In this document: positions 19,783-36,500 of the stretch, in pieces
Position numbering within the stretch: the stretch's first letter is position 1
Layout of the letters: every line of letters begins with the position of its first letter
Assembly: GCA_016787725.1 (NCBI GenBank)
Contig: JAEUTZ010000006.1
Location: 124,001-188,000 of the forward strand
Direction of reading: 5' to 3'
DNA from: Cyclobacteriaceae bacterium
GTDB lineage: Bacteria; Bacteroidota; Bacteroidia; Cytophagales; Cyclobacteriaceae
DNA: 64,000 nucleotides
Notes under the pieces: model-generated
The model's database searches: none
The model's input: the letters and a program-made list of their open reading frames with translations, nothing else
Told to the model about the DNA's origin: nothing
Program-made: the position numbers and the translations under genes

Positions 19783-21702
19783 TCAGGATTTGTCGAGGAT
19801 TTCGTAGCGGGAGTAGTTGCTGCGAAATTCGGGGATCAACTCTTTCATGAGGGCCACCATCTTCAGCTCGTTGCGGTCGTTCACGAAATCATAAAACAAT
19901 TCGATGTATTTGTTGATCTCCTCATAAGCATAGGGTTCCACCTTGCCGATCAGAATTTTCTCGTGGTGGGTGGGCAGGGTATCTTCGGAGTTGTTCAGCA
20001 ACTCTTCGTACAACTTCTCCCCTTCCCGCAGGCCCGTGTACACAATTTCAATATCCTTTTCGGGTTGCAGACCGGATAAGGAGATCATCTTGCGGGCGAG
20101 GTCCACGATTTTGATCGGACTGCCCATATCAAACACAAATACCTCCCCGCCTTTGCCCATGGTGCCGGCTTCGAGCACCAACTGACAGGCTTCGGGGATG
20201 GTCATGAAGAACCGCGTCACCTCCGGATGGGTAACCGTAACCGGACCGCCCAATTCAATCTGTTTTTTAAACAACGGAATCACCGAACCATTGGAGCCGA
20301 GCACGTTGCCAAAACGCGTGGTGACGAAGGCGGTAGTGTACTTGCCCTTTTCCTGGTTGTGCACGTTCAAGGCCTGGACATACACCTCGGCAATGCGCTT
20401 GGAGCAGCCCATCACGTTGGTGGGGTTCACCGCTTTGTCGGTGGAGATCATGACGAATTTACGCACGTTAAACTCCACGGCCAGGTCGGCCAGGTTTTTC
20501 GTGCCGAGAATGTTGCAATGAATGGCCTCGCCCGGATTGCCTTCCATGAGGGGAACGTGCTTGTAGGCGGCTGCGTGGTAGATGATCTCCGGTTTGTTGT
20601 CGGCAAAGATCGCGGAGATGCGGGGTTGGTTGGTGATGTCGGCCAGGTAAGCGAGTACCTTTACAGCACTGGAGGCTTTGATCTCACGCTCAATTTCATA
20701 GAGGGGCGATTCGGCCTGGTCGATGAGGATAATCCGCTCCGGATTGTGGCGGATGACCTGGCGCACCAGTTCGCTGCCGATGGAGCCCGCTGCCCCGGTG
20801 ATGCAGACGCGCTTGCCGCGCAGGTCGTGGTCAACACTCTGGTTGTTGAGTTGGATGGCCTCGCGGCCCAGCAGCTCTTCAATCTTGATTTCGCGGATCT
20901 GATTTAAACTCAACTCCCCGCCCACCCACTTCTCCACAGGCGGCACCGTCCGGACTTTTACCTTGTTGCGCAGGCAGGCATCGACCAATTCGTTTTTGCG
21001 TTCGAGGGAGATGTCGCGGACCGTGATGATCAGTTCGTCAATGTTCAGTTCGTCCAGAAAGTAATCGAGGTTTTCCCTGCGGGCGTCAAAGATCTTGGTA
21101 CCGTCCACCACCTTGCCGATTTTGTTCTGGTCGTCTTCGAGGAAGCCGGCAATCCGCATGTTGGGGGTAGAGTCGATGACGTGGCGGGTGATGATGCCGG
21201 TTTGACCGGCTCCAAAGATGATGACGCGGGATTTTTTTATCAATGCATTGCGGTAATAGGAGAAAATGTATTTTACCAGCAACCGGTAATTGAATAAGAA
21301 TAGGAAGGAAGCGATCAGGCTGATGATCACTACCGAATACGGAATCAGGAAATGGCCGATGCGATAGTAGGAAAATACATTGGCGGCCACCACCAGCAAC
21401 CCGTTGGACAACAACATAAAAAAGATCCGCACCCCGTCCTGGATGCCCGTATAGCGAATGATGCCTTTGTAACTTCCCGTCAGCAGGATGGCCATTACCG
21501 CACAAGCCGTATAGATGATGAGGCCCTGGCCATACTGTTGCTGAACTAAGTCCGATGTGGAAAAATTAAAACGAAGCAAATAGCCCAATAAGGCTGAAAA
21601 GAAAATGATTGTAGAGTCAATGAGAATGATGACCCAACGCGGAAGTATCCGCAGGTTGCGGAGGGAGACGATCAGTCTTTTGGTTGTTCTTTCCGGAGCC
21701 AT
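19783..21702 (-). CDS. Membrane-bound UDP-GlcNAc 4,6-dehydratase (PglF/WbpM/CapD family)
   Basis: 639 residues. Four to five transmembrane helices (about 20-135), a first Rossmann domain (FGAGQTG, about 160), then the extended SDR catalytic domain with GAAGSIGSELVRQ (about 300) and ISTDKAVNPTNVMGCSK. The last shows the S-M-K triad of WbpM-type enzymes in place of S-Y-K. The family makes UDP-4-keto-6-deoxy-GlcNAc (or its C5 epimer) at the inner membrane. Its start overlaps the end of the small sorting-tail gene by 31 bases. It can supply both the PglE/PglD/PglC-like genes upstream and the WbpV/WbpL-like pair at 52 kb. Confidence 0.92.
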   Translation of the reverse strand: MAPERTTKRLIVSLRNLRILPRWVIILIDSTIIFFSALLGYLLRFNFSTSDLVQQQYGQGLIIYTACAVMAILLTGSYKGIIRYTGIQDGVRIFFMLLSNGLLVVAANVFSYYRIGHFLIPYSVVIISLIASFLFLFNYRLLVKYIFSYYRNALIKKSRVIIFGAGQTGIITRHVIDSTPNMRIAGFLEDDQNKIGKVVDGTKIFDARRENLDYFLDELNIDELIITVRDISLERKNELVDACLRNKVKVRTVPPVEKWVGGELSLNQIREIKIEELLGREAIQLNNQSVDHDLRGKRVCITGAAGSIGSELVRQVIRHNPERIILIDQAESPLYEIEREIKASSAVKVLAYLADITNQPRISAIFADNKPEIIYHAAAYKHVPLMEGNPGEAIHCNILGTKNLADLAVEFNVRKFVMISTDKAVNPTNVMGCSKRIAEVYVQALNVHNQEKGKYTTAFVTTRFGNVLGSNGSVIPLFKKQIELGGPVTVTHPEVTRFFMTIPEACQLVLEAGTMGKGGEVFVFDMGSPIKIVDLARKMISLSGLQPEKDIEIVYTGLREGEKLYEELLNNSEDTLPTHHEKILIGKVEPYAYEEINKYIELFYDFVNDRNELKMVALMKELIPEFRSNYSRYEILDKS

Positions 21703-21854
21703 TTTCGGGTAATACCATATGCTACCCCCATGCCGATGAGCAATTCAATGCCTGAAATGGGTACTGTTGGGTTGCCCCCACCCCCTGGGTCACCGGGTTG
21801 TGCCAGCAGCACATTTGCACTGATCAGAAATAACACGACCAAATACTTTCTCAT
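21672..21854 (-). CDS. Small exported protein with PID-CTERM-like sorting tail (candidate exosortase substrate)
   Basis: 60 residues: signal peptide (cleavage near LLAQ-P at 19), a Gly/Pro linker PGDPGGGGNP, then VPISGIELLIGMGVAYGI (conserved-looking motif plus one transmembrane helix), and a basic end RKWLRKEQPKD. Short motif, helix, basic tail is the tripartite plan of exosortase targets, and the PIS-G start resembles the PID-CTERM tails of small Bacteroidota proteins (from memory; not a search result). The mature part before the motif is only about 12 residues. It is 5 bases after the T9SS giant and overlaps the dehydratase start, in the gene run that contains XrtF. Confidence 0.7.
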   Translation of the reverse strand: MRKYLVVLFLISANVLLAQPGDPGGGGNPTVPISGIELLIGMGVAYGITRKWLRKEQPKD

Positions 21855-21859
21855 ACCTG

Positions 21860-24800
21860 CTATCTCTTTAGGACCCGGATTACTTTTTTCTGTTCGCCCA
21901 ATTGAATTGCAATCAGGTATAAGCCGGCAGGTCTTTCCCGTAAGTCAAGCACCTGTTTACCGGAAGGACGGATGGTGGAATCAAAATTTTCCTGACTCAA
22001 GTTTGCCCCCATCGCATTTAACAGTGCAATCGACTTAAGGTTATTGCGTTCCACTTCTGATAATTCAATGTATACATAATCGGTAGTCGGGTTTGGATAG
22101 ACTTGTAATTCTGTCAGGTAAGGAGGGAAGTCTTTGGCCGGCTCGCCATTGATCCGGAGATAGAACCGCCCCATGCCTGTACTTTGCCTTTCCTCTGTAA
22201 TCTGAAATACATATTCCGATCCATCGGTAATGTCTGTTTCCTTTCTTCCATAAAGGTCAACCAAAACCACCCGGTAACCCGAGGACAACAGCGCAAGATC
22301 CGAAAACTTCAGTACGTATTCGCCCGGTTCAACATCGGCTATGTTCAGGTTTATGATTTTCTCCCCGGTTAGTTTTGCCACCGAGTTGATGGCATACTCC
22401 TCCATCGGGTTGTTTACGTAGGAGGACAAATTGAATGACGGTGTGGTTTCAATTGAAGTCGGGTTTTTCAATTGGTCGTTCTTCAATTTGAAGGCATCCC
22501 ATTCGGGATCATAGCCATCCGAGGCATTGTCGGCAAACCGGATGACAATTTCATCGCTGCGGCCCGATTCCGCATTCAGGGAAATCCGGAAATAATCATC
22601 CGGAGATTTGGTGCGCAAAAAGTAATTGTTGTTTCCCGTTTTATCGGCTTCGCGCAAGGTAAAGGTTGTGCCGCCACCGCTGGAGACCACCCAAAATGCC
22701 TGACCGGTACTGATTTCACCTGTCCAGCCTCCGAAAGGGGGATTCGTAGCAACACCGCCTACGTAGGAAGAAAATACATTGTTATCCACACGCAGATACA
22801 TTGCGTTGGTAACATTTATTTTATTCACGTTGTCCCAATCCAATGACGATGGATACGGGTTGGGCACCAGATTAAAATTGCCATTTGTATTCGAGATCGT
22901 AATAGGGACATCTCCGCGCTCAGGTATACCCCGGTAGGAAACCGTAACTGCGCCATTATTAAAGTCATAAGCACTGTACCCCAGGCGGCTGCTGATGCCA
23001 GTTGCCGAAGTGAGGCCACCCGACCCGTTGACGGCTGTAAATGTCTGAGTCGTACTGTTGTATGTAAATACGGAGGGGTTAGTATTTCCCGAATCGACAA
23101 TGTTGGAGTTATCAGCGTTTGTGCTCCGGTCGCTGAAATTACCGGTAACGTGGATAAAGTTGCGCCAGATGCTCAGGTTGGCATTGGTAGTAATGGGCAT
23201 GGAGAGGTAGCGGTAGTCGCCCCCGGTTTTTCCATGGATGTAGCGTTCAATGGTTACCTGACCGGTTAAGTTCGTGGGATTGGGAAGGGCTGCAATCCGC
23301 CCCCCCACCGTTTGGGAGGTTGAACTCACAATAAAAACACCGGTTCCACTGGGTCCATCGGCATCCATAAAGGCCCCTGAAGTCAGGGTAAGGGTACCGT
23401 TTAACCGGGAAGTATTGGCTATTTGAACGCCCGGTGACACCGGATTGCTTACCGTAACATTATTAAAGGTAGTGGCCGAACCAGAAACCGTTTGGGCCAA
23501 GACTGTTCCGTTGAAGACTACAGTGCCGCCATTATTATTGAAGGTTCCACTGTTCGTGAAATTCCCGGCTATTCCCAATGAGCTTGTTGGTGCGGTAAGG
23601 GTTCCGGACACGGTAACTGTAAAGAAATTGGATTGGTTCGAGCCAGCAATGGTGGTGGTGCCGTTAAAGTTAACCGCGCCATTGTTATTGTTAAAGGTAC
23701 CGTTGTTCGTCCAGTTGCCGGCCACATTAAACGTTCCGGTTGGTGCTGTCAGGGATCCCGAGATGACGATGTTATTAAATGAAGAGGTACTACTGCCGGA
23801 GATTGTCGTGGTGCCGCCAAAGGTTGTAGTTGCAGTACCTGCATTCAGCGTGCCGTTATTGACAAGATTGCCGTTGATTTGAAAATTGGACGAAGGTGTT
23901 AATGCTCCCGTAATTGTGATTGAACCAAATGTTGGTGTTGCCGATCCTGAAATGGCCGTGGTACCCGAGAATGTAATGGTGCTGGAAGTAAGGGTTGAGC
24001 CTGCATTGCTCACGAAATTACCTTTCAGATCAATGGCGTTAGAGCCAGCATTAAAAGTGCCGTTGGAAAGTGTTAAAATTCCATTGATGGTAATAGCCTT
24101 GCTCAGGGTGAGCGTGCCCGATCCGATTTTGGATAAATTGGCCAGTGCCGTGGTATTATCTGGTAGTTCCGGTCCCGATGAAATCGTACCCGTTGTGTAA
24201 ACAACATTATAGGTATCCACAGTATTTGCGAGCAGAGAATTCATTGTTCCGCCTGAACGCGTTACCGTTCCGCCCGCGGCCATGGAAATACCCGTACCAT
24301 TTGCAAAGGTTCCTGCATTCAAATTCAGATTTGTAAGGGTGCTCGTTGAAGTTGTTGTAAACGATGTACTGGCACGGGCCATTGTGAGGGTACCCAGTGC
24401 ACCGCCAGCCAAAGAGATATCTGAAGGCAGGGTTCCTGTACCATTGATGATTAAGGTTGATGCCGATGTTGTTGACAAGTCATCGGGTGTAGACGGCCCG
24501 TAGGCACCGCTGATCGTAAGCGTATTTGAGCCAATTGCCAAGGTACCTGTTGTATGAGTAAATGTTCCAAGGACGGTGAGGTTGCCACCTAAGGTAACGA
24601 GGCCAGCTCCTCCGGTGCGGTTTAATGTAAAATTATTCAGTTGTGTAGTACCGTTGAAAGTCAGTGTACCGAAATCACCAGTACCCCCGATCACCAGATT
24701 AGACGAGGGACCTCCTACAAGGCCACCCGAGCCGGTTACAGTTCCATTAATGGTCAATGTTTGGGTCCCTATAGAAATATTTCCAGAGGTTAATGTTAAA

Positions 24801-26167
24801 GTACGAAGCGCAACAATATCCAGGCTGGTGCTTAAGCTTACCCCATTAGCGTTGTTGATTGTTAAATTAACATCGCTTCCGGAAGGGAAGCCGTTACCGA
24901 TAAATTGTGCAGCCACCCCATTGTAGACAATAGTGGAGTTTGCAGCATAGGTTCTTGTACCCGAAACTCGGATATTCCCACCCGTGGCACCTGTTTGTAT
25001 GGCGCCTGCTGCATCAGTTGCTCCGACACGGAGTGTTCCGTTTAAGGTGAAGGTACCACTTCCAGAGAGGATAGAGGTGCCAAGGTCTAAAGTCGATAAA
25101 GAAGCAACTGAGAAATTAACAGAGCCGGAAATAGTTCCTGAATTTGAAAAAGTATGTGTAGCAGCTCCGTTAAAATTCAGGTTTGCTGTTCCTGAGCCAG
25201 CTCTTGTAACAGTACCTGCTTGTAAAGTAAAATTTCCAAGTAAGTCGATAATACCATTTCCTGATGATTCATTAAAGTAGGTTGTAGCTGAGGGAGAATT
25301 CATATTGAAATTCCCGGTTATACTTAGAGTACCGTTTCCTGAGCTGCCGCTCAGAACAAAAGCATATCCAGGATCAATGTTTATATCCGCATTCCCCAAC
25401 ACATTCAGCGTCACATTAGCACCTCCAGAATATCCTGACAAGTACACATAAGAATCATTACTCACTAAAAAGTTGCCACCAACCGTTACAGTTCTATCAG
25501 CACCATCCGATAAAAGAAGGAACCAAAAATCCGGTCCCGTTGAAGTTACACTGAAATTTCCATTAATGGTCGATAAAATCCCATCCAAATCTATATCGTT
25601 ACCCTGGGAAGTGCAATTCCATATTACATGGTGAAAGGTTTTAGGACTGACTGCCAACGTAGGTGCTACTGCTGAGCCACTCGTATAACCCGTAAACTCT
25701 AAGTTAGAACCTGATTGAAAATCACCATCATAAATAATTCCACCAGAAGTATAATTCATTCTGTACGTTCCTCCTGATTGAATAATTAATCGTTGAAATG
25801 CATGATTAACAATCGTGCTTCCATCGTCCATCTGCAAAATCCCGGCTACTTCAATACGGCCACGATTTGAAGTGGTGCCCAGTGTCAATGTACCTGACAA
25901 ATTAAGTTGCCCCCCATTATTAATTACGACCCGAGAATTGACATTTGATGTAATTGAAACAGCAACCGCACTTTCTGTATTTCTTACGGTAACTGTATGG
26001 CCTGAGGCGATTGAAACAAGAGTTGAGTTAGCATTGGTGGGTACTACGCCACCTACCCATGTACCAGGAACATCCCAAAATCCAGATCCTGCGGATGTAA
26101 TTGTCTGAGCAAATGCACCACTTACAAGAACAAAGGATAGTACAAGCGACAGTAATGTTCTTATCAT
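21860..26167 (-). CDS. Giant repetitive secreted protein with T9SS type A sorting domain
   Basis: 1435 residues from the ATG at 26167, chosen because it opens the signal peptide (ends AFAQ-T) and follows a -7 box. The N-terminal SGFWDVPGTWVGGVVP block and dozens of short repeats (GTLTL..., NNGTFNNNGGTVxFNGT, about 60-950) predict a right-handed beta-helix. A non-repetitive region (about 960-1340) follows. The last 80 residues (YPNPTTDYVYIEL ... GLYLIAIQLGEQKKVIRVLKR) are a type A T9SS signal. Cell-surface or secreted, probably adhesive or structural (inference). Sits between the aminotransferase and the PID-CTERM-like gene. Confidence 0.88.
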   Translation of the reverse strand: MIRTLLSLVLSFVLVSGAFAQTITSAGSGFWDVPGTWVGGVVPTNANSTLVSIASGHTVTVRNTESAVAVSITSNVNSRVVINNGGQLNLSGTLTLGTTSNRGRIEVAGILQMDDGSTIVNHAFQRLIIQSGGTYRMNYTSGGIIYDGDFQSGSNLEFTGYTSGSAVAPTLAVSPKTFHHVIWNCTSQGNDIDLDGILSTINGNFSVTSTGPDFWFLLLSDGADRTVTVGGNFLVSNDSYVYLSGYSGGANVTLNVLGNADINIDPGYAFVLSGSSGNGTLSITGNFNMNSPSATTYFNESSGNGIIDLLGNFTLQAGTVTRAGSGTANLNFNGAATHTFSNSGTISGSVNFSVASLSTLDLGTSILSGSGTFTLNGTLRVGATDAAGAIQTGATGGNIRVSGTRTYAANSTIVYNGVAAQFIGNGFPSGSDVNLTINNANGVSLSTSLDIVALRTLTLTSGNISIGTQTLTINGTVTGSGGLVGGPSSNLVIGGTGDFGTLTFNGTTQLNNFTLNRTGGAGLVTLGGNLTVLGTFTHTTGTLAIGSNTLTISGAYGPSTPDDLSTTSASTLIINGTGTLPSDISLAGGALGTLTMARASTSFTTTSTSTLTNLNLNAGTFANGTGISMAAGGTVTRSGGTMNSLLANTVDTYNVVYTTGTISSGPELPDNTTALANLSKIGSGTLTLSKAITINGILTLSNGTFNAGSNAIDLKGNFVSNAGSTLTSSTITFSGTTAISGSATPTFGSITITGALTPSSNFQINGNLVNNGTLNAGTATTTFGGTTTISGSSTSSFNNIVISGSLTAPTGTFNVAGNWTNNGTFNNNNGAVNFNGTTTIAGSNQSNFFTVTVSGTLTAPTSSLGIAGNFTNSGTFNNNGGTVVFNGTVLAQTVSGSATTFNNVTVSNPVSPGVQIANTSRLNGTLTLTSGAFMDADGPSGTGVFIVSSTSQTVGGRIAALPNPTNLTGQVTIERYIHGKTGGDYRYLSMPITTNANLSIWRNFIHVTGNFSDRSTNADNSNIVDSGNTNPSVFTYNSTTQTFTAVNGSGGLTSATGISSRLGYSAYDFNNGAVTVSYRGIPERGDVPITISNTNGNFNLVPNPYPSSLDWDNVNKINVTNAMYLRVDNNVFSSYVGGVATNPPFGGWTGEISTGQAFWVVSSGGGTTFTLREADKTGNNNYFLRTKSPDDYFRISLNAESGRSDEIVIRFADNASDGYDPEWDAFKLKNDQLKNPTSIETTPSFNLSSYVNNPMEEYAINSVAKLTGEKIINLNIADVEPGEYVLKFSDLALLSSGYRVVLVDLYGRKETDITDGSEYVFQITEERQSTGMGRFYLRINGEPAKDFPPYLTELQVYPNPTTDYVYIELSEVERNNLKSIALLNAMGANLSQENFDSTIRPSGKQVLDLRERPAGLYLIAIQLGEQKKVIRVLKR

Positions 26168-26190
26168 AGGATTCAACTTATACGAATCTA

Positions 26191-26198
26191 CAAAATTA
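26191..26198 (-). promoter_or_regulatory. -7 box TAATTTTG for the T9SS giant gene
   Basis: Exact TAnnTTTG match on the minus strand 23 bases before the ATG at 26167, inside the 109-base gap after the aminotransferase gene. It suggests a separate transcription start for the cargo, small protein and dehydratase genes. Confidence 0.45.
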
Positions 26199-26276
26199 AC
26201 CAAAAATCATCAATTCTACCCTAAACCTTACACTAAATACGGGTTGGCAGAAAGAACGTAACCGAGATTTGCGATT

Positions 26277-27365
26277 TTAAGAACTTGGCTTATTTAAGGA
26301 GCTTACAACCGCCTCACAAAAACCCGAGCTTGGTAAGCAGACGGTTTCTTTAAACAATTGTTCTGACACACCCCGTAAAAACAATGGGTACCCTGATAAA
26401 TGGGACATTTTATGCAAGGGATTCCACCCAACCCTCGTTTCAATGCCTTGATTTTCAAGCTCTTTAATCCAGGCACTTCTCTTTTTCTTAATCGGGTACC
26501 GAAATGCTGAGAGCCACCGGGAAGCAATGTGCCCTCCGAGCGGCTGGGCCCAACTTACCGCAGGAATTTTATCAAAGGACTTGCAATAGTTACGAAAAAC
26601 CTGCTGACGGTCATGAACCAACTTATCATCCTGTTGTACACTCATGATGCCATAAGCCGCCACTAACGGACTGATCCTATAATTATAGCCCACCTCCTTA
26701 AACAGATAATACGGCCTGGGCAACCGGGCCTGGGTGGACAGCAGTCGGACGCGGGCGGCTAACTGCTTGCTTTTGGTTACCACCAGGCCACCCCCGAATG
26801 CCGTTACCGTTTTATTGTTATTGAAGGAGAACACGCCAATATCGCCCACGGTGCCGCTGGGTTGGCCCTGCAAAGTGGCGCCCCAGGCTTCGGCCGCGTC
26901 TTCGATCACCGGTACTTCGTACGCACGGGCCAGCTTCATAATCCGGTCCATGTCGGCAGGCACTCCGTAGTTGTGCACCACGATGATGGCCTTAAGGCGT
27001 TTTTTACCGGTCGATTTTTTCAAGGCTTGCTCGAGTAATTCCGGATCGAGGTTCCAGGTAGTTTCTTCGGAATCGATCCATACGGGGATGGCCTGTTGAT
27101 AGAGAATTGGATTGACCGAGGCCACGTAGCTGAACGTGGGGACGGCCACATGATCTCCGGCCTTAATGCCCAGGGCCATGAGCGCCAGGTGGAGTGCAGC
27201 CGTGCCGGAGGTCACCGCGATGGTGTGATACTTTAGGAGGCGTGATGCGGTGAGCGATTCAAAATCCAAAATGAGTTGTTCGTGGTGGCGGCCTTCGTAC
27301 TGCTTTAAAAGTTTGTGTAAGCCATCCGCATCGATGGGGTTGTATGAGAGGGGTACTTTATACAC
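26277..27365 (-). CDS. DegT/DnrJ/EryC1/StrS-family sugar aminotransferase (PglE-like)
   Basis: 362 residues, PLP-dependent fold type I. VTSGTAALHLAL (51-62) contacts the cofactor phosphate, IEDAAEAWGA (154-163) holds the PLP Asp, and SFNNNKTVTAFGGG carries the Schiff-base lysine at about 185. These enzymes transaminate keto-sugar nucleotides; with the 4,6-dehydratase and the PglD-like acetyltransferase nearby, UDP-4-amino-4,6-dideoxy-GlcNAc is the likely product (inference). It overlaps the XrtF-associated gene by 8 bases, so it is translated from the same mRNA. Confidence 0.9.
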   Translation of the reverse strand: MYKVPLSYNPIDADGLHKLLKQYEGRHHEQLILDFESLTASRLLKYHTIAVTSGTAALHLALMALGIKAGDHVAVPTFSYVASVNPILYQQAIPVWIDSEETTWNLDPELLEQALKKSTGKKRLKAIIVVHNYGVPADMDRIMKLARAYEVPVIEDAAEAWGATLQGQPSGTVGDIGVFSFNNNKTVTAFGGGLVVTKSKQLAARVRLLSTQARLPRPYYLFKEVGYNYRISPLVAAYGIMSVQQDDKLVHDRQQVFRNYCKSFDKIPAVSWAQPLGGHIASRWLSAFRYPIKKKRSAWIKELENQGIETRVGWNPLHKMSHLSGYPLFLRGVSEQLFKETVCLPSSGFCEAVVSSLNKPSS

Positions 27366-27786
27366 GGGGTTTGGTTTTCAACTCCTGAATGTAACATGCG
27401 GCCAGTAGAATTCCCATCAGCAACGGGTTGACGATCATGCGGTGGATGGTGGACAGCCAGGGCGAAGAAATTTCGGTGGGACCTTCCAGCATCAACTTTA
27501 CCACCAGGTAAACGGGGAGGATCACCAAGATTTCTATCAAAAACAAGCTCCATGCCCAGCGGAGATAGGCGGGGCGGTGCGTAAATAAAACCCGGAACAC
27601 GAGCAGGAAGATACTATCGTTCAGGAGCAAGCGCACCGTGCGGTTGAATGCAAAGGTGAAGTTGGGGCCGGCATCGATGCCCGCGGCAGCCGCGTAGGTC
27701 CATTGCTGCGACAGATAGATGAGCAATAAGCCGAGGCCACTGCCTGTTAACACAAGCCACGCTTTCCAGGTAAGGTGATTAGTCAT
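27358..27786 (-). CDS. Exosortase F system-associated membrane protein
   Basis: 142 residues with about four transmembrane helices and no signal peptide. The pattern RLLLNDSIFLLVFRVLFTHR..., then SPWLSTIHRMIVNPLLMGILLAACYIQE near the C-terminus matches the small protein regularly encoded next to XrtF in Bacteroidota (exosortase F-associated family). Inner membrane; biochemical role unknown. Overlaps xrtF (8 bases) on one side and the aminotransferase (8 bases) on the other. Confidence 0.85.
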   Translation of the reverse strand: MTNHLTWKAWLVLTGSGLGLLLIYLSQQWTYAAAAGIDAGPNFTFAFNRTVRLLLNDSIFLLVFRVLFTHRPAYLRWAWSLFLIEILVILPVYLVVKLMLEGPTEISSPWLSTIHRMIVNPLLMGILLAACYIQELKTKPRV

Positions 27787-28288
27787 GCCATCTGATCCAG
27801 ATCCACCACGCTACAAAAACAAAGGCATACAGAAATGCCGTAAACAGATATTTATGAAAATAATAGAACCAGGTACTGTCCGTCTCCGCCAGCCAGAAGA
27901 GAAAGCCCACGCGCACCAGGTTCAAGCCATGAATCAATAAAAGACCACCGAGGATAAATGGGATCATCTTCCGTACGGGCCCACCGAAGGCGATGACAAA
28001 GGAGATGAATACGATCATCACGTTGATGCCGTTGCAGCCCTCAAAAAGATTGATGACTGCATCGTTGTTATTTACAAAACCAATTAAGGGTTTATCGGAA
28101 ACCGGAACCAATTCAAGGTGATACCCTCCCCAGCGGAGACAAGCGGCAGTCTGCTGACCCACCCACCGCGTGGCGGGGTCGGCTTGCGGGTACCACCCTG
28201 CGATCCAGAGGCCGTATAGTCCGTTGAGCACCAGGTAGAGGACAATAAAGATCAATAAGAAGCGCAGGGCCGGAGGCAGGGACTTCAT
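27779..28288 (-). CDS. xrtF: Exosortase family protein XrtF
   Basis: 169 residues, four to five helices. The catalytic residues of exosortases can be placed: Cys at 85 in EGCNGINVMIVFISFVIAF, Arg at 126 in HGLNLVRVGFLFW, and His at 145 in YFHKYLFTAF. Size and motif flanks fit XrtF rather than the larger EpsH-type enzymes. Exosortases are membrane transpeptidase-like proteases that process C-terminal sorting tails, usually coupled to exopolysaccharide export. It is embedded between an acetyltransferase (4-base overlap) and its associated protein. A candidate target lies about 6 kb downstream in the same orientation. Confidence 0.88.
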   Translation of the reverse strand: MKSLPPALRFLLIFIVLYLVLNGLYGLWIAGWYPQADPATRWVGQQTAACLRWGGYHLELVPVSDKPLIGFVNNNDAVINLFEGCNGINVMIVFISFVIAFGGPVRKMIPFILGGLLLIHGLNLVRVGFLFWLAETDSTWFYYFHKYLFTAFLYAFVFVAWWIWIRWHD

Positions 28289-28926
28289 GGTGCTTTGGGT
28301 TTAGCGGGTACACCAACAACCGTAGTAGCCGATGGAACTGATTGCAATACTATGGCCCCCGCCCCTACGCGCGCCTGATCGCCAATGGAAATGCTCTGCA
28401 GTACGGAAGCCCCGCTACCCAGCAACACTTCGTTACCCAGGTGCACATGACCCGACAGGTGCACGCCCGGCATAATGGATGAAAAATCTCCGATCGTGAC
28501 ATCATGCCCGATGGTGGAGTTGAGATTGATCAGCACGTGGCGACCGAGTGTGATATCCACGGTAAGGTGACAGCCTGCGGTGATGATGGAGCCGGCACCC
28601 ACATTGATATTAAGCCCGAGCGTAGCGGCCGGGTGAATGAGTACCGGAAATGCGAGGTGTGGGTTTGAAATTTTTGAGAGCACTGTGGCTTTGGTTTGGG
28701 GATCGCCCATGGCTACTACCACCGCGAGGGGATAATCGATTGTATTCAGATCTGCGATCGCACCCAACACCAATTGGCCGGCCAGTTTTTTTCCTTTGGG
28801 GAGCCCATCATCATAGAAGCCCACCAGGTTCCAGGTTAGTTGTTGCTGGTTGATCTGGCGGATCAGGACGGCTACTTCTTTTCCGAGGCCGCCTGCGCCT
28901 ATGATTGCAATGTCTTTCAGAACCAT
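28285..28926 (-). CDS. NeuD/PglD-family sugar O/N-acetyltransferase
   Basis: 213 residues. An N-terminal Rossmann-like subdomain (IAIIGAGGLGKEVAVLI, PglD_N type) is followed by a left-handed beta-helix of hexapeptide repeats (about 95-205: AATLGLNINVGAGSIITAGC, GRHVLINLNSTIGHDVTIGD, GNEVLLGSGASVLQ). The catalytic His of PglD corresponds to the one in STIGHDVTIG. Uses acetyl-CoA to acetylate an amino or hydroxy sugar nucleotide; with the aminotransferase and dehydratase a diacetamido-trideoxyhexose is plausible (inference). Overlaps xrtF by 4 bases. Confidence 0.9.
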   Translation of the reverse strand: MVLKDIAIIGAGGLGKEVAVLIRQINQQQLTWNLVGFYDDGLPKGKKLAGQLVLGAIADLNTIDYPLAVVVAMGDPQTKATVLSKISNPHLAFPVLIHPAATLGLNINVGAGSIITAGCHLTVDITLGRHVLINLNSTIGHDVTIGDFSSIMPGVHLSGHVHLGNEVLLGSGASVLQSISIGDQARVGAGAIVLQSVPSATTVVGVPAKPKAP

Positions 28927-28927
28927 T

Positions 28928-29018
28928 TTAGAAGTTAAAAGTCTAAAGTTAAAAGTTTAAAGAATAAAAATGCTTAAGCGGAAAGCTTGAAAGCTAAAAG
29001 CTTTAAGGCTAAAAGCTG
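28928..29018 (+). repeat. Degenerate AAAGTTAAAAGTTTAAAG-type repeat tract
   Basis: Tract of R-rich 9-10 base units (AAAAGTCTAAAGTTAAAAG, GAAAGCTTGAAAGCTAAAAG) filling the gap between the acetyltransferase and the sugar transferase. Similar tracts occur at 19.5, 29.6, 47.1, 48.1, 49.3 and 51.5 kb, all with the purine-rich strand on plus. Confidence 0.6.
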
Positions 29019-29026
29019 GTGTGGTG

Positions 29027-29602
29027 TTATCCGGAAAATTTTTCTTCGTTAAGGGAAGTGTCTTGTTTTAGGGAGAGGGCTAGTAGGAAGGTTTTGAACA
29101 AGATTGTTAGGTCAAGCCAGAGGGAGCAGCGAGTGATGTAGTCCAGATCATGCTTAAATTTTTCGGGCCAGGGCAGGTTGTTCTTGCCGGAGATTTGGGC
29201 GAGGCCGGTGATGCCGGGCCGGACTTCATGACGTTTGTTTTGCTCGGGCGAGAATAAAGGTTGGTATTCCAGCGGCAACGGCCGCGGGCCGATGATGGAC
29301 ATGTCCCCTCTCAGTACATTCCAGAGTTGCGGCAACTCATCGAGGTTTGTTATTCGTAGGAGGTTGCCCCAGGCAAATCTGCGGGCTGTTAACGATTGGG
29401 TTGTATCGGTTGAGAGGGTACGGAACTTGTGCATGATGAAGGGCTTGCCGTTTTTGCCGATTCGATATTGGGAAAACAGGATGGGGAATTGGGCCTGGAA
29501 CAAGTACCCAACTAAAATCAAGAATGTAATTATAAGAATGGGGATCAGGAATAGTAAAATCAGCATATAGTCAAACACCGGCTTTAAGGATTTGTAACTC
29601 AT
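29027..29602 (-). CDS. Undecaprenyl-phosphate sugar-1-phosphate transferase (PglC/short Bac_transf family)
   Basis: 191 residues. One N-terminal membrane (re-entrant) helix (about 8-35), the RIGKNGKPFIMHKFRT block, the catalytic DELPQLWNVLRGDMS segment (Asp-Glu dyad) with IGPRPLP, and the C-terminal VRPGITGLAQISGKN. The short length is that of monotopic PglC-type enzymes, not of WcaJ-type ones. Transfers a sugar-1-phosphate from UDP to undecaprenyl phosphate, the first membrane step of glycan assembly. It heads the minus-strand cluster, and TATCTTTA (one mismatch from the -7 box) lies just upstream. Confidence 0.9.
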   Translation of the reverse strand: MSYKSLKPVFDYMLILLFLIPILIITFLILVGYLFQAQFPILFSQYRIGKNGKPFIMHKFRTLSTDTTQSLTARRFAWGNLLRITNLDELPQLWNVLRGDMSIIGPRPLPLEYQPLFSPEQNKRHEVRPGITGLAQISGKNNLPWPEKFKHDLDYITRCSLWLDLTILFKTFLLALSLKQDTSLNEEKFSG

Positions 29603-30191: not shown

Positions 30192-33100
30192 TTATCGACT
30201 GATCAGTACCTTGGTGTATACCTCATTACCTGCCGATAAAAAATAAAGTCCCGCTGATATATTGGATACATCAACCCGGCTTTCCCCGGCATGTGCCTCT
30301 GCCGATAATTGAAATTGTGCCCCTTGTGAAGAAGTCAATGTTACCACGCGTACTTCAATCCCATGAAGGATAATTATGCCAGACGCTGGGATTGGCGACA
30401 CAACCATTCTCGCCATTTCCTCTATCCCGGTAACTATATCAGACATCGCGCTACAGCCACCATAATTTACTAGGACGGTATAGGTGCCTCCGGATTCTGC
30501 AACGTAAGATGGATTAATCGCTCCGGGTATCGGCAAGCCATTTAGTATCCATTGATTGTTCGAACTGCTGCTCGAGGTAAGAATTATTTGGGTTCCGGAC
30601 GATGTTAAAGTAATAACCGGCTGAGCGGGATTCACACAAAATGACTGGCTTACAGCTGGGGCAGGCATATATTCTTCGTTGCCACCCTGGGTGGCAGTTA
30701 TCGTAACCGGACCAGGTCCCACTATGCTGACCTGACCTTGGCTCAATACAACATTCGTGTTTGACGAACTAAACTCAACCGGCAGTCCTGATGAAGCTTG
30801 TGCGGTTACAAGAAATGAAGGATCCCCTTCTGTTTTAGAGGTTAAAGCTGAAAAGGAAATGGTTTGGGTGCTTTTTGTTTTAAAGGCAATAGCAGGATAG
30901 GAAGACGTCAAGTAATTGTTAATTAACCTTGCCAGATCATCGCGGTACTCGAAAACGGTGGCAACATACTCTGTACCCGCTTGTAGTCCGGTAATGGTTA
31001 CTTCCGTTTGGTCACCTCTCAAAACAACGAAATTGCTGTTTCCAATATTCGCTCCCTGGCCGAATTGATTGTTGGCGGAATAGAATGCATCGTCTTCCGG
31101 GAGTTCAGCAGGAAAAGTATTTTTCCTCAGCAATACGATTCTCCCATCGCCAGCCCCCTTTCCAAATCCCAGCTTAGCCGATATGTCTGTGCGGTCTAAG
31201 ACGGTAATTGGCCCCGCCTGGCTGGTGGGTTCGGCAATGAAGAATCCCGGATAGACCTCAATACCATGAATGACTGAGAACCCAATGAGGTCCGGGCTTC
31301 CATCGTTGTTCAAGTCTGCTGAGGTGATATCCTGTTGCCCATCCGACTGGGCAAGCAGCTCCGTTTTCAGTTTGTATGTATTATTCTGCCTCTGTACATA
31401 GATTGCAATTTTAGGAACATAAATTCCTGCATTATTCCGGTTGACACGAATCGCAACGTCTCCCCGGCCGTCCTGATTAAAATCGGCCACAGTAAACAAA
31501 TAGTCGCTGGAAATAGTGAGGGGTTGTTGCACCGAAAAAACAAATTCCTGAAATACGCCAACACCCGTATTTTGGAATACAGAAAAAGTATTGTTATCAG
31601 ATATAGTGAAGATATCAGTAAGGTTATCGGTATCGTAATGACCGACCTCAAGCCTTGCTACGCGCCTGGTACTCGCAAGTTTAACAGGATCTGCAAAATT
31701 ACCATTACCGGAGTTCAGCAAGGTCCACGCATCGACAGCGTCACCAATCACAAGGTCTGGGGCGCCATCCGCATTCAGATTTGCTATTTTGGCATAATTT
31801 GGATACACCCCCAGTGACATAGCCTGGTGATTAAATGAGCCATCCCCGTTTCCGAAGAAGACACCATTCCAACAAAAAAAATCCTGTTTACCATCCAGGT
31901 TGAAGTCACCCGCTACCATTATGCCTGATGCCTGACTGACTTCGAATGGCGCCTGATGGTGTCCTTGGTTGTCGGTAAGGGAAAGTTTGACCCTGGATAT
32001 GCCGGAAAGATAGAGTTCCATAAAGAGTATGTCATCAAAACCATCTGAGTTAAAATCAGCTGTTTCTACATACTCAACCCTATACCCTGCCCCCAGAAGA
32101 TACGTATTACTTTCGAATGTCAGATTGCCATTGCCACGCTTTATTGTGGCTGCACCATTTGAGATTGATGCATTAACCAGATCAATATTCCCATCATGAT
32201 CTACATCGCGTGCTAATCCACGGAGCGGGCTGTTTCCAAGTATTTCTTTGTGCACCAGTTCAAAGCTGTCATTTACTCTTTTGAGAACTGACAGGCTCGG
32301 GAACCCCGAAAGGCTCACTAACTCGGGGCCTCCGTTGTTGTCTAAATCCACAAACGTGAGGTTCAGAACATCATTTACACGTTCATCAGAAAATGGATCT
32401 TTGACAAATGCACCTCCCGTGTTTAACAGAATTGCAGGGCCGGTGCCATTGTACGTGGCTATTGCCAGGTCTTGAAGACCATCATCATTATAATCTGCAC
32501 TCGCCAGACGAGAGGAGGCGGATGTAGAAGATGGAATCAGGACCGGGTTCGAAAACCCGCCAGACCCGTTATTTGTCATTCCGGCAATGTACACTGTACC
32601 ACTCGAAGAAAATGAACCAACGATATCCGTATTGTTGTCGTTGTTAAGGTCTGATGCAATTATATATATCGGAGTAGTTCCAAGGCTGACAGTGGTTTTA
32701 GCAAAGGTTGTGCTTGAAGAAAGATAAATATCCATTTGCTGACCCCGCCCGATAGCAAAGTCGTTTTTAGAGTCGTTATTGAAATCGGCAACAACTAAGC
32801 TACTTCCACCAATGACGTTGTTGTCAGTTTGTTGTGAAAAACCACCCAGTCCATTACCCTTGTACCAGGTAAGTGCTTGTCCAATATTAGGTACTACCAC
32901 GTCAGCGTGTCCATCGTTGTCAAAATCATCCGTTGATATTGAGTAAATATCAGTTGGGCCTGGAATAGTGAAATTAGACTTGGTAAATGACGTGCCGGTT
33001 GAAATCAAGATGATCAGTCGTTCACTGACAGGATTGTTTCTGTTTACGATCGCAAGGTCACTCTTACCATCTTCATTAAAATCAGCGGACACCAGTCGAT

Positions 33101-33455
33101 AATCAAAGTTTACTCCACCCGCGTCTGTCGAGGAGTTGGTATATACGTAAGTGCCATTGTTGTAGAGTACATGCAACTTACCCTCCGTGGAAGTAATGTA
33201 TGCTATGTCCTTGAAACCATTGTTATCAAAGTCTCCGATTGCCAAATCTTCCGGAGAGCCTTCTCCATCGACTTTTCGAGACATATCGAAAGTGAATTGA
33301 GCCGGTGCCTCCTGGTACATGGTGGCAAGGCAGGCGAATAGAACAACTGATAAAGCTAACTTACCAGGGTTGCCAAAATGAAAGTACCCGACCAGCCAGT
33401 TTCTTTTGGAGCTGGGTCTGAAATGGTGAAACTGTAGTCTATAAATCTTATCCAT
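30192..33455 (-). CDS. FG-GAP/VCBS repeat secreted protein with T9SS sorting domain
   Basis: 1087 residues. An extended N-terminus (about 34 residues) precedes the hydrophobic signal segment (LALSVVLFACLATMY, cleavage near APAQ-F). About a dozen FG-GAP/VCBS units (pattern DFNxDGxxDLxI with Asp-rich calcium loops) fill residues 60-760, as in a beta-propeller. Ig-like segments follow (SFSALTSKTEGDPSF..., ITLTSSGTQIIL), and the last 75 residues (VVSPIPASGIIILHG ... GLYFLSAGNEVYTKVLISR) are a type A T9SS signal. Cell surface or secreted; ligand unknown. Monocistronic in appearance. Confidence 0.88.
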   Translation of the reverse strand: MDKIYRLQFHHFRPSSKRNWLVGYFHFGNPGKLALSVVLFACLATMYQEAPAQFTFDMSRKVDGEGSPEDLAIGDFDNNGFKDIAYITSTEGKLHVLYNNGTYVYTNSSTDAGGVNFDYRLVSADFNEDGKSDLAIVNRNNPVSERLIILISTGTSFTKSNFTIPGPTDIYSISTDDFDNDGHADVVVPNIGQALTWYKGNGLGGFSQQTDNNVIGGSSLVVADFNNDSKNDFAIGRGQQMDIYLSSSTTFAKTTVSLGTTPIYIIASDLNNDNNTDIVGSFSSSGTVYIAGMTNNGSGGFSNPVLIPSSTSASSRLASADYNDDGLQDLAIATYNGTGPAILLNTGGAFVKDPFSDERVNDVLNLTFVDLDNNGGPELVSLSGFPSLSVLKRVNDSFELVHKEILGNSPLRGLARDVDHDGNIDLVNASISNGAATIKRGNGNLTFESNTYLLGAGYRVEYVETADFNSDGFDDILFMELYLSGISRVKLSLTDNQGHHQAPFEVSQASGIMVAGDFNLDGKQDFFCWNGVFFGNGDGSFNHQAMSLGVYPNYAKIANLNADGAPDLVIGDAVDAWTLLNSGNGNFADPVKLASTRRVARLEVGHYDTDNLTDIFTISDNNTFSVFQNTGVGVFQEFVFSVQQPLTISSDYLFTVADFNQDGRGDVAIRVNRNNAGIYVPKIAIYVQRQNNTYKLKTELLAQSDGQQDITSADLNNDGSPDLIGFSVIHGIEVYPGFFIAEPTSQAGPITVLDRTDISAKLGFGKGAGDGRIVLLRKNTFPAELPEDDAFYSANNQFGQGANIGNSNFVVLRGDQTEVTITGLQAGTEYVATVFEYRDDLARLINNYLTSSYPAIAFKTKSTQTISFSALTSKTEGDPSFLVTAQASSGLPVEFSSSNTNVVLSQGQVSIVGPGPVTITATQGGNEEYMPAPAVSQSFCVNPAQPVITLTSSGTQIILTSSSSSNNQWILNGLPIPGAINPSYVAESGGTYTVLVNYGGCSAMSDIVTGIEEMARMVVSPIPASGIIILHGIEVRVVTLTSSQGAQFQLSAEAHAGESRVDVSNISAGLYFLSAGNEVYTKVLISR

Positions 33456-33532: not shown

Positions 33533-36500
33533 TCACTTCTTAAAATTATAAGCCATTGTTTTCAGAATATTACCACTCTCATCGCGCACGGTTCGCAGGC
33601 GATTAAACTCATCATACTCATATCGCTGAACTGCTTGTGCTTTATCCGTGACACTTGTTACTCCGATCCCCGGCAAATAGGTGTAGGAAGTTATCTGGGC
33701 CGCGGGAGGTGTGATGCGCAGGTCATCGATTTTTGTACCGTCCTGAATCAACAGTGAACCTCCAGAATATGCAACCTCCTTATAATTCCATTTTGAATTG
33801 CTCCAATACCAATACGATAGCTTACTATTCGCCTGCACCGTTATTCCAGCCGGTTGTGTAAATGTGAAGTTGCTTGCCCGACTGAACCTTCCTGACCGAG
33901 CTTGGGAATCGAAAGTTCCACCTCCATACTCATACCCCTCAAAATAAAATTGACCAGGTTGGGTATTGACGCCCTCGGCAATCAGTTCAGGGGTTGTTGA
34001 ATTTGACCACAAAAATGATAGCGTAAGGTCATCCGTCTTTTGAATGGCGCTGAGATTACCAGCATTATCATATTGGTAAGTTGCCTTTAATTTATAAACT
34101 ATTGGTGGGGAGTTTATATTAGAGATAGTTGAAGCAGTAGTGTAACTCAAAGGCGCAGGTTCTTCGAGATCATAATATCTTTTCATCCTGATTGAGCCAT
34201 CAAAATTATCAACCTCATAATTTAAAAGCCTGCCTTGAAGCACATTTCCATCTTTCGTATTTCGTGTAAGACTTAGTACAGGCTCTAACTTATTTCGCGA
34301 TAACATATTAGCCAGCACCGTTGAGCCCACTGGATCAGTAAAGTCAAATGCATACCTTAACTCTTGACTTATCAAATAGCCATCTGATTTTTGGGTATCC
34401 ATCTTGCGGATTACATAATACGAATCCCTGTCGGTTAGACCATTCCTGAAGACATAGTTCATTGTCTTCGATTCCGTTAATGTGGAGCCACCCGGCTGAT
34501 AAGTATTAGTTACGGATGTTGCAGATTCAACCGCATAGCTCAAAAACCAATATTGTCTGAATGCAAAATTGCAATAACCACAGTTTTCGAATTTTGCCGG
34601 TGCAGCTTGCCACCCGACAATTGAATCAATTTGACTAATCGTATACGTATAGTCAACTGCACTGAGAAGCACATTATCCTGACGATATACTTTCTGATTT
34701 TTAGCCTTGCCAGTAAGGCCCGGATATACTGTGATCGGCAAATTTAAGCTACCTTCAATAGGCGAAATGAAACCCCAATTATTGAATTCATTATAAAATT
34801 CATAGATAGTTCTTCCAACCGGTGCTTGAGTGTCACTCGGGGAAGATACCACAATCTCCTCAACCTTATCGTAACCAAGAAGAGCAGTTTGGTTTACAAA
34901 AGTATTGAGCGAGCCTGACTCCAAAACTCTTAATCTATACTCGTAATAATTATTCTCACAAGTAGGCACCGTTGTTCCACCCACTGAATTATTTACACCT
35001 TTGTAATCATAGTCATACCGAAGTATATCATGCAACAGCCCACTTGATACGCCAGGCGTCAACTCATATTTAAACTTCCTTACAGTTGTGGCTGTGACTG
35101 CGGGATTTTCAAATTGTTGAATACTTTTTACACGAAGGCCTGGCCCTGTCTTATTCACAATCTGACTCCCCTTAGTGTACCACTTTATGGTGGCACCAAT
35201 GACATCTGCGCGATAAATGGAAATTGTGGCCCTCAATCTATAGGTACCCCGGAAAAGCTTGTATAAGGCAGCCGTTGATCCATTTATTAACTGCTGACTA
35301 TAAGACACATTTGTACCTGTAATAATGATACCACAATCTGCCGGAAGTCCACCACCTGGCGCTTCACAAGTTGATATGGCATCAACCCATAAATACGTTG
35401 TATCTTGTGTGAGCGTAAAAAATTCGTCATCTACATAGAACAGACCTTCCTGCGAATTTCCCGATTGACTGGGATTAATGAATACAGCGCGTGAGTTTTC
35501 AATCTGTTCATATTCTGTACCAAATCTGGAGTAGGTATTAGGCTCGTACTCTACTTTAACTGCCCCACCGGTTGGATAGTTGATCTGCTGCAACATGCCA
35601 TATTGTGTATAGTCAAATGCAGGATTACGATTGGCACCTTTGAAATTTATAAAATAATCATAGTTATAAAACTGTAGCAAATTGGGCTTGAAATACCGGG
35701 GTAATAGCGTAGAATTATTAGCACCATTAAAATATCCCCAATGATCGATGCTGTACGAGTTCTTTGTTGGTTTGGTAAGCGCATCATAATAACTGAATTT
35801 ATGAGCAGGCATCCGAACGCCACCTTTTCCAAATTCTACAAGACTATCTAAACGTAGGTACTCGGCATTACCCGCAATAGAAGTAAAGTAGGAGTGAAAG
35901 AACTTAAAATTCTTGATAGTATCAGAATTATGAAGCACCACCACTTGCTTGAGACGATGTCCTCCTGTGAGATCAAGCCGGTCAGTGTTCTCAGCAATAA
36001 AATTGACAGTATACCCTCTGAAGGTTATGCTGCTCAATCGTTGGCCACTTACTGTATTGTTGCTATGATTAGTGTAATCTGTATTGGCATAGTCGGGACC
36101 AACCGGGTCTGAAATATTAGGAGGAACCACCAGAAAGCCTTTCGATTCATGATCGGGCGTGCGATAACTAGTGGTCTCGGGCACGTAGGCAAATGAAATT
36201 GTTTCGCGGGCAGAGCCAGAACGTATCTGACTCACATACCATGAATTCTTTGGTTGCATCTCGCCCAACCGCGACTGGCCATTCATCTGAAAATTGGTTG
36301 ACTGAATAATGGATTGAATCCGCTCCGAAGCACTAAACTGATAAAGCGTGCCAGCCTCATCATACACGGCAAACTCGAAGTCATCAATGCCGCCTCCCGT
36401 TGTAATCAGTTCGATTTTCGTGCGGGTTTTTGGTAATGCCCGCACCCGACCGTTCCGGTCAAGAACAAATTTGCCTGATCCACCTCCCGGAAGCGCGTAC

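Follow-up and report, generated by a model that had tools for sequence, protein, structure and literature searches.

A PID-CTERM-like microprotein as the probable target of exosortase F in a Cyclobacteriaceae operon

Introduction

Exosortases, PID-CTERM proteins and the type IX secretion system (T9SS) are all kinds of element that are already known. PID-CTERM (NF046080) and exosortase X (XrtX, NF046081) exist as database models, of which we presume XrtX to be the intended partner of NF046080; the term PID-CTERM was not found in the open-licence literature that we searched. Closer to the system described here is exosortase F (XrtF) of Flavobacterium johnsoniae, whose targets were left to future work in 2024 (PMC10936215) and were not yet known as of 2025 (PMC12188702), as far as the available text of the two papers goes. 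Here, we describe a block of eight genes from a Cyclobacteriaceae bacterium in which an XrtF and its probable target, a 60-aa microprotein, lie together. The block is part of a 64,000-nt stretch of DNA (contig JAEUTZ010000006.1 of GenBank assembly GCA_016787725.1, positions 124,001 to 188,000 of the forward strand), hereafter called the window, to which all coordinates refer.

In F. johnsoniae, xrtF is required for normal biofilm formation and colonization, according to the available text of the 2024 study. Deletions of xrtF and of the gene for its partner protein share one phenotype row there with deletions of porU, porZ, Fjoh_0334 (an aminotransferase) and Fjoh_0651: sand colonization is reduced, biofilm is much reduced and zorbs are abolished, while sprA and porV deviate from the xrtF row in Bacillus cereus colony expansion only (PMC10936215). 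The matching xrtF and porU rows fit a common surface process, without proving one. From the comparisons below, we propose that XrtF and its partner process one dedicated microprotein and that the resulting peptide serves the placement of a giant surface protein exported by the T9SS. We put the probability of this reading as a whole at roughly 0.6.

Exosortase F and its candidate target

The block consists of eight open reading frames (ORFs) on the minus strand (19783 to 29602), which encode PglC, PglD, XrtF, the XrtF partner, PglE, a T9SS-tailed giant, the 60-aa microprotein and PglF. PglD and XrtF overlap by 4 nt, XrtF and the partner as well as the partner and PglE by 8 nt, and the microprotein and PglF by 31 nt; 5 nt separate the stop of the giant from the start of the small gene. 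An earlier note, made from the sequence alone, had set out these eight genes and the overlaps from PglD to PglE, all of which are found on this strand, and had named the enzyme XrtF, pointing to C85, R126 and H145. Both the name and the residues hold. XrtF (169 aa, 27779 to 28288) reaches 116 bits with TIGR04128 (cut-off 90), more than with any other exosortase model listed; the exosortase X model gives 99.7 bits (cut-off 170), and TIGR04128 also beats exosortase H. It is the sole TIGR04128 match at E ≤ 10 in its own 4.2 Mb genome. A contig scan with six XrtF sequences yielded 67 named loci, and the triad is invariant in all 68 sequences from these loci and the window. Two sets from outside the named loci, each counted with the window sequence, keep Cys and Arg in 40/40 and 41/41 and His in 37/40 and 41/41. 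Directly downstream of XrtF stands the associated membrane protein that the note had recognized (142 aa, 27358 to 27786), a weak TIGR04127 match with 22.9 bits (E 7.5e-5), under the cut-off of 35; with a model of the own lineage, 59 of the 67 named loci show a partner homologue next to XrtF.

The microprotein (21672 to 21854) has the sequence pattern QPGDPGGGGNPTVPI|SGIELL..., preceded by a signal and followed by a helix and a basic tail. Residues 1–18 form a predicted signal peptide, assigned by eye (21801 to 21854); the 15-residue spacer QPGDPGGGGNPTVPI would be the exported product (21756 to 21800); the putative recognition motif PISG covers residues 32–35 (21750 to 21761), and the predicted transmembrane helix with the basic tail covers residues 36–60 (21675 to 21749), as judged from the sequence and the alignment. 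Searched alone, this protein matches no NCBIfam or Pfam family; NF046080 (cut-off 26 bits) gives no match at E ≤ 1, and its 4.2 Mb genome holds no second copy. Small ORFs with a VPIDGG motif, a helix and a basic tail occur near exosortase genes within the order, and 13 of 16 aligned small proteins match NF046080 at E ≤ 1 (best 1.3e-13), the window protein not being among them. We built a leave-out profile from those 18 rows of an alignment (A3) that do not come from pgl–xrtF operons; one of these rows (G097) is from a member of the family of the window, although its motif is PIDGG and its exosortase stays under the XrtF cut-off. Run over the window and the 67 named loci, with 19,334 ORFs in all, this profile gives 40 matches at E ≤ 1, of which 37 lie in the slot between the giant and pglF (36 named loci and the window). 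In this slot, 32 of the 37 reach E ≤ 0.01, with the window at 0.021 and the weakest at 0.34; the three remaining matches are PID genes beside sub-cut-off exosortases (L216, L218) and one stray. Judged by this profile, the window protein is a diverged PID-CTERM microprotein. The earlier note had called it PID-CTERM-like and had pointed to sorting-tail models as the check: the existing model fails to match it, whereas the leave-out profile does, and homologues with the same motif, helix and basic tail exist.

In all 37 slot proteins, the signal-like stretch (assigned by pattern and eye) ends with Ala or Ser before a Gln, and the distance from this Gln to a P[ILF][STGQ]G motif at the same position is 12–21 residues (median 15), followed by a helix and a basic tail. 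Values of dN/dS are 0.12–0.16 in the three closest pairs; over the scorable pairs (214 of 666) the median is 0.40, most others being saturated, which makes this a weak test past the close pairs. Because it occupies the same slot in 36 named loci, keeps the signal-peptidase-like A/S|Q site in 37/37 and has low dN/dS in the closest pairs, the small ORF is a real gene. After both cuts, only 12–21 residues would remain of the microprotein: if XrtF cuts at the motif, the peptide alone stays outside. We liken VPITG/VPISG to the logic of LPXTG. Under the Q-rule of Bacteroidetes, as given in the available text of two papers, an exposed N-terminal Gln is converted to pyroglutamate (PMC5837995, PMC10653852). 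Some spacers hold a Cys pair, PCP[KR]PPC or CPGGPPC (L174, L177, L183, L197, L199, L200, L217; L164, L179), which suggests a disulphide or thiol chemistry of the short product.

Co-occurrence of XrtF and PID-type genes

We compared exosortase (TIGR04128, E ≤ 1e-12) and PID-type genes (A3 profile, E ≤ 1e-3) over 396 genomes of the class. An exosortase is present in 181 and a PID gene in 185; 153 genomes hold both, 28 the exosortase only, 32 the PID gene only and 183 neither (Fisher p 3e-47, ignoring shared ancestry). For the window's family, PID genes occur in 6/6 exosortase-positive and 0/6 exosortase-negative genomes of this sample. The 15 top-scoring XrtF loci of the class (L083–L097, all above 200 bits; 13 from family f71, two from f40), which we call canonical, have no PID gene within the fetched stretch of ~20 kb (0/15), and a search for tagged small ORFs that made no use of the motif turns up nothing at canonical xrtF loci apart from xrtF itself, the partner gene and one gene for an unrelated membrane protein. 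The target is therefore not beside canonical xrtF. The earlier note had expected pgl-type genes and the small gene near XrtF in relatives; this holds in the window's lineage and fails at the canonical loci, where the PID gene is absent in 15/15 and a pgl-type match in 14/15 of the fetched stretches.

Whole-genome profiles reveal diverged PID proteins in some of these canonical-XrtF genomes, and adding them to A3 gave alignment A4, which we used on family f71. This family, which we call Flavobacteriaceae-like by inference from its scores above 200 bits against the model named after Fjoh_1448, was sampled with 119 genomes of nearly all different genera. XrtF is present in 82, always over the cut-off, and PID in 73 at E ≤ 0.01, with 71 genomes holding both, 2 PID only, 11 XrtF only and 35 neither; the two PID-only matches are partial ones inside frames of 524 and 392 aa. 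At E ≤ 1e-3, PID is found in 65/82 XrtF-positive and 0/37 XrtF-negative genomes, and leaving out the five seed genomes, in 60/77 and 0/37. At one further locus (L108), PID, XrtF and partner genes are consecutive and each is over its NCBI cut-off: NF046080 50 (26), XrtF 106.6 (90) and TIGR04127 65.4 (35). Because of the f71 co-occurrence and this gene trio, PID-type microproteins are very probably XrtF targets.

We fetched the PID loci of 20 of the 73 f71 genomes, all with strong matches (L249–L268). In 19 of these 20, the PID gene stands at one chromosomal place, divergent to a riboflavin-synthase-like gene (ribE), with pdxA, DUF177, fabH, accB and accC as neighbours (named by eye from L253). 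A dedicated candidate at such a fixed place makes the question of the XrtF target experimentally tractable. The exception is L251, where the PID gene of genome G237 lies near contractile-tail-sheath-like genes (by eye); this genome has a second, weaker PID match elsewhere. The candidate target is dedicated and usually single-copy; some genomes (G011, G349, G464) carry five PID-type genes each, and one enzyme for one target is therefore not universal.

The T9SS giant and its coupling to the microprotein

The gene directly in front of that of the microprotein (21860 to 26203) encodes a giant surface protein, listed with 1447 aa, whose T9SS tail is over the cut-offs of PF18962 (31.6 bits, cut-off 27) and TIGR04183 (25.3 bits, cut-off 23). 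The TTG start given in the ORF list probably lies too far upstream; Met13 (~26167) stands before a signal-like sequence. The earlier note had named the giant as part of the block without giving it a role, yet no other neighbour of the small gene is as constant: in 36/36 named loci with the small gene, a large ORF of 733–2055 aa stands before it with a gap of −8 to +19 nt, and the gap from the small gene to pglF is −59 to +64 nt. In three Marivirga species, a PITGIE gene lies away from xrtF, 16–34 nt behind a T9SS-tailed giant of 1538–1554 aa.

The pairing extends to PID-type genes outside the operon. Twenty-four of 33 PID matches of the order and class lie at most 100 nt behind a same-strand ORF of 677–2071 aa (677 being cut by the end of a locus), and 19 of these 24 upstream ORFs match a T9-tail model built on tails of the own lineage; without the four loci of pgl–xrtF operons (L040, L042, L043, L080), the figures are 20/29 and 15/20. 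Pfam confirms the tail in 5/5 giants scanned. As background, T9SS-tailed ORFs number 27 in the window's 4.2 Mb genome and from 25 to at least 150 in nine others. Since large upstream neighbours recur at PID loci, giant and microprotein form a recurrent two-gene unit, if not a universal one, and we lean towards a T9SS link of XrtF and the microprotein.

Conservation of the operon

Thirty-two of the 67 named loci are titled Cyclobacteriaceae or Flammeovirgaceae, and the others Cytophagales, Bacteroidetes, Bacteroidia, Cytophagaceae, Marivirga, Fulvivirga(ceae), Spirosoma or Flavobacteriales. As the note had supposed, the block is conserved in this lineage together with pgl-type genes and the small gene. 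Forty-two loci extend 3 kb or more upstream and 9 kb or more downstream; among them, the partner is found in 38, PglC in 34, PglD in 37, PglE in 36, the T9SS-tailed large ORF in 35, the small gene in 32 and PglF in 34. Over all 67, many of which are cut short, PglC is found in 53, PglD in 59, PglE in 56, the T9SS ORF in 41, the small gene in 36 and PglF in 38; loci without the small gene between giant and pglF mostly end early or have the gene elsewhere. These counts, like those of pgl-type genes at the other XrtF loci and of T9-tail matches in front of PID genes, are partly circular, as the XrtF, partner, Pgl and T9-tail profiles were trained on the same loci; the leave-out PID profile, the comparisons with solved structures, the Pfam tail scan and the scores over NCBI cut-offs are independent checks. 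Ten of the 42 loci lack the small gene. Two of them (L160, L169) stop within the large ORF, and for L160 the small gene of the same genome is present in L080; in the three Marivirga loci as well as in L214 (G006) and L215 (G200), a PID-type gene stands elsewhere in the genome; in L216 and L218 it adjoins the exosortase; the tenth (L219) is a Flavobacteriales contig.

The sugar genes

Four genes of the block encode enzymes with the predicted activities of a Pgl-type pathway. These are a PglF/WbpM-like membrane UDP-GlcNAc 4,6-dehydratase (639 aa, 19783 to 21702; PF02719 399 bits), a PglE-like DegT aminotransferase with a GTG start (362 aa, 26277 to 27365; PF01041 258 bits), a PglD-like sugar N-acetyltransferase (213 aa, 28285 to 28926; TIGR03570 191 bits, cut-off 161) and a PglC-like small phosphoglycosyltransferase (191 aa, 29027 to 29602; PF02397 178 bits). 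The closest solved structure of PglF is 5bju (E 2e-90), labelled WlaL, which we take to be PglF of Campylobacter jejuni. PglC is closest to 8g1n, a diacetylbacillosaminyl-1-phosphate transferase (7e-40) and presumably PglC of Campylobacter, ahead of undecaprenyl-phosphate galactose phosphotransferases (7e-25). PglE matches the sugar aminotransferases 7b0m (6e-63), 1o61 (1e-55) and 4ztc (1e-54), the last two of which we take to be Campylobacter PglE, while PglD matches VioB (4e-33), the pilin glycosylation protein 4m98 (8e-25) and the UDP-N-acetylbacillosamine N-acetyltransferase 3bss (5e-14). On account of these closest structures, it is a fair prediction that the block makes a lipid-linked diacetamido-trideoxyhexose.

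Pgl-type genes stand beside XrtF in other families as well (L101, L104, L107, L110), in L110 in the order PglC–PglD–XrtF–126–PglE–PglF, and Marivirga has PglD-like genes beside xrtF and no PglC/E/F match nearby. Seven family members without XrtF carry PglE homologues of 39–42% identity within pglC/E/F clusters, to which two of them add a PglD-like gene; XrtF, the partner and the small gene are absent from the stretches fetched for all seven. We therefore reject an obligate link of the sugar to XrtF; the sugar may be a surface-glycan context and a possible acceptor. In one of the seven (L276), a 932-aa T9SS-tail ORF lies four genes away. The sugar cluster around XrtF is of another kind in L050 (G006): judged by eye, its oxidoreductase and its hexapeptide acetyltransferase resemble WlbA and WlbB.

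Outside the block, upstream of pglC, lie two further minus-strand genes: one (30192 to 33455) encodes an FG-GAP-repeat protein whose T9SS tail is sub-threshold, the other (33533 to 37012) an RHS-repeat protein. The left flank has a convergent gene for a beta-barrel protein and one for a CoA-ligase-type ATP-grasp protein.

Proposed mechanism and alternatives

The operon itself, the PID-CTERM homology of the target, its co-occurrence with XrtF, the coupling of the target gene to giant genes and the conserved triad are what the comparisons establish; the two cleavage sites, a transpeptidation and its acceptor, the giant's need for the peptide and any part played by the sugar belong to the model that follows. 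In this model, XrtF and its partner would be a dedicated enzyme with essentially one microprotein as target (PI[ST]GIE here, PID-type relatives elsewhere). The microprotein would be exported by Sec and cut by signal peptidase I at A|Q, leaving an N-terminal Gln that is expected to become pyroglutamate. The Cys/His/Arg site of XrtF would then cut at PI[ST]G, so that helix and basic tail stay in the inner membrane and the Gly/Pro/Asp-rich peptide of 12–21 residues is transferred to an envelope acceptor that carries an amine. Co-translated with the microprotein, the giant would cross the outer membrane via the T9SS and need the peptide for its placement or anchoring, while the pgl enzymes would provide the lipid-linked diacetamido sugar for the surface glycan where the transfer occurs. 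An extended version, in which XrtF, at the inner membrane, puts the pyroglutamyl peptide of ~15 residues on an undecaprenyl-linked diacetamido-sugar glycan and the resulting peptide-glycolipid anchors or receives the giant on the outer surface, with exosortase and T9SS acting in series, is speculative and seems unlikely in this form.

Several findings weigh against the proposed processing and placement. Cleavage by any XrtF has been demonstrated in no experiment, and the leave-out score of the window microprotein is weak. Since the genomes share ancestry, the Fisher p values overstate their independence. With TIGR04128 as the only model used, the 32 PID-only genomes of the class have no XrtF match; other exosortase types may serve them. 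Conversely, 11 of 82 XrtF-positive f71 genomes have no PID match even at the looser threshold, and Fulvivirga kasyanovii has xrtF and no target that we found, possibly because its assembly is incomplete. Six f71 genomes (G561, G585, G625, G536, G617, G634) hold a second, low-scoring exosortase adjoining its own PID gene. They may have two parallel enzyme–target pairs, and part of the co-occurrence there may therefore belong to the second enzyme. The giant, too, is not always at hand: nine of the 33 PID loci of order and class break the rule, only 4 of 17 scored unlinked PID genes in XrtF genomes have a T9SS-tailed ORF directly upstream, and the fetched f71 PID genes lie away from xrtF, 19 of 20 having housekeeping genes around them and no giant before them.

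The alternatives differ in what they make of the sugar genes and of the giant. The earlier note had suggested that the diacetamido-sugar lipid from PglF/E/D/C is used as XrtF processes the microprotein. XrtF would then link the peptide to this sugar, and the product would prime or anchor a polysaccharide. PglD and PglE are indeed frequent near XrtF (59 and 56 of 67 named loci), PglD-like genes remain by xrtF even in Marivirga, like gene sets accompany XrtF in other families (L110, L101, L104), and the expected product is too short for an enzyme. Set against this, enzymes with PF02397, PF02719 and PF01041 are common in ordinary O-antigen and exopolysaccharide (EPS) clusters, 14 of 15 canonical loci lack a pgl-type match in the fetched stretch, and Marivirga has its xrtF without PglC/E/F nearby. 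A glycan primer is possible but unproven, because relatives without XrtF keep pglC/E/F; both the use of the sugar in the XrtF reaction and the priming role, as the note put them, go unsupported, and we consider such a primer rather unlikely. If all weight is given to the giant instead, to which the microprotein is most tightly coupled, the microprotein could be a membrane-retained assembly factor or chaperone that XrtF leaves uncut. The strong co-occurrence with XrtF in f71, where no giant is adjacent, and the PID-CTERM-type signal on the microprotein speak against this, and it appears quite improbable.

Two further explanations carry even less weight for us. The product is very short, conserved and expected to start with Gln, as a secreted, pheromone-like peptide freed by XrtF might be, but its sequence is similar over many contigs and not strain-specific, and there is no regulator among the eight genes of the block, the only ones considered; such a signal is very unlikely. 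That an EPS cluster was invaded by xrtF and a surface-protein gene in one ancestor, making the neighbours a coincidence, agrees with pgl genes existing without XrtF and conflicts with giant and small gene staying paired away from xrtF in Marivirga as well as with the class-wide co-occurrence of PID genes and exosortases, so that we give it hardly any credence.

Comparison with known systems

As far as the open-licence literature shows, three things appear new: PID-type microproteins as the proposed targets of XrtF, a PI[ST]GIE variant within a pgl–xrtF operon, and a coupling of these microproteins to T9SS giants. The XrtF–PID pairing may already stand in the model notes of the NCBIfam curators. 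PID-CTERM and exosortase X resemble our system in having a small protein with motif, helix and basic tail and, in many relatives, an adjacent exosortase; the own lineage differs in its PI[ST]GI(E) in place of PIDGG, in lacking a match to NF046080 and in having XrtF and its partner as the enzyme. F. johnsoniae has the same enzyme family with its partner (Fjoh_1448/1449), but the target is stated as unknown in the available text (PMC10936215, PMC12188702), while the window operon has a probable one. The Campylobacter Pgl pathway for bacillosamine shares the PglF, E, D and C homologues; the eight genes of the block differ in having no oligosaccharyltransferase, and the product of the block is a prediction from its genes. 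From the PEP-CTERM/EpsH system of Proteobacteria, as described in the available text, come the parallels of a Cys/Arg/His membrane enzyme, a tripartite tag and nearby polysaccharide genes; that system serves a larger set of substrates, whereas here there is essentially one microprotein, with another motif and a coupled T9SS giant (PMC1569441). The T9SS with PorU and a Wbp/Vim linking sugar likewise combines C-terminal processing with a surface sugar in Bacteroidota, but PorU has its place at the cell surface and works on the T9SS signal, according to the text available (PMC7468200), whereas in our block T9SS cargo is coupled genetically with an exosortase of the inner membrane. A link between an exosortase target and a T9SS giant is not described in the available text of some open-licence papers that pair both terms; if true, such a coupling would join two export systems.

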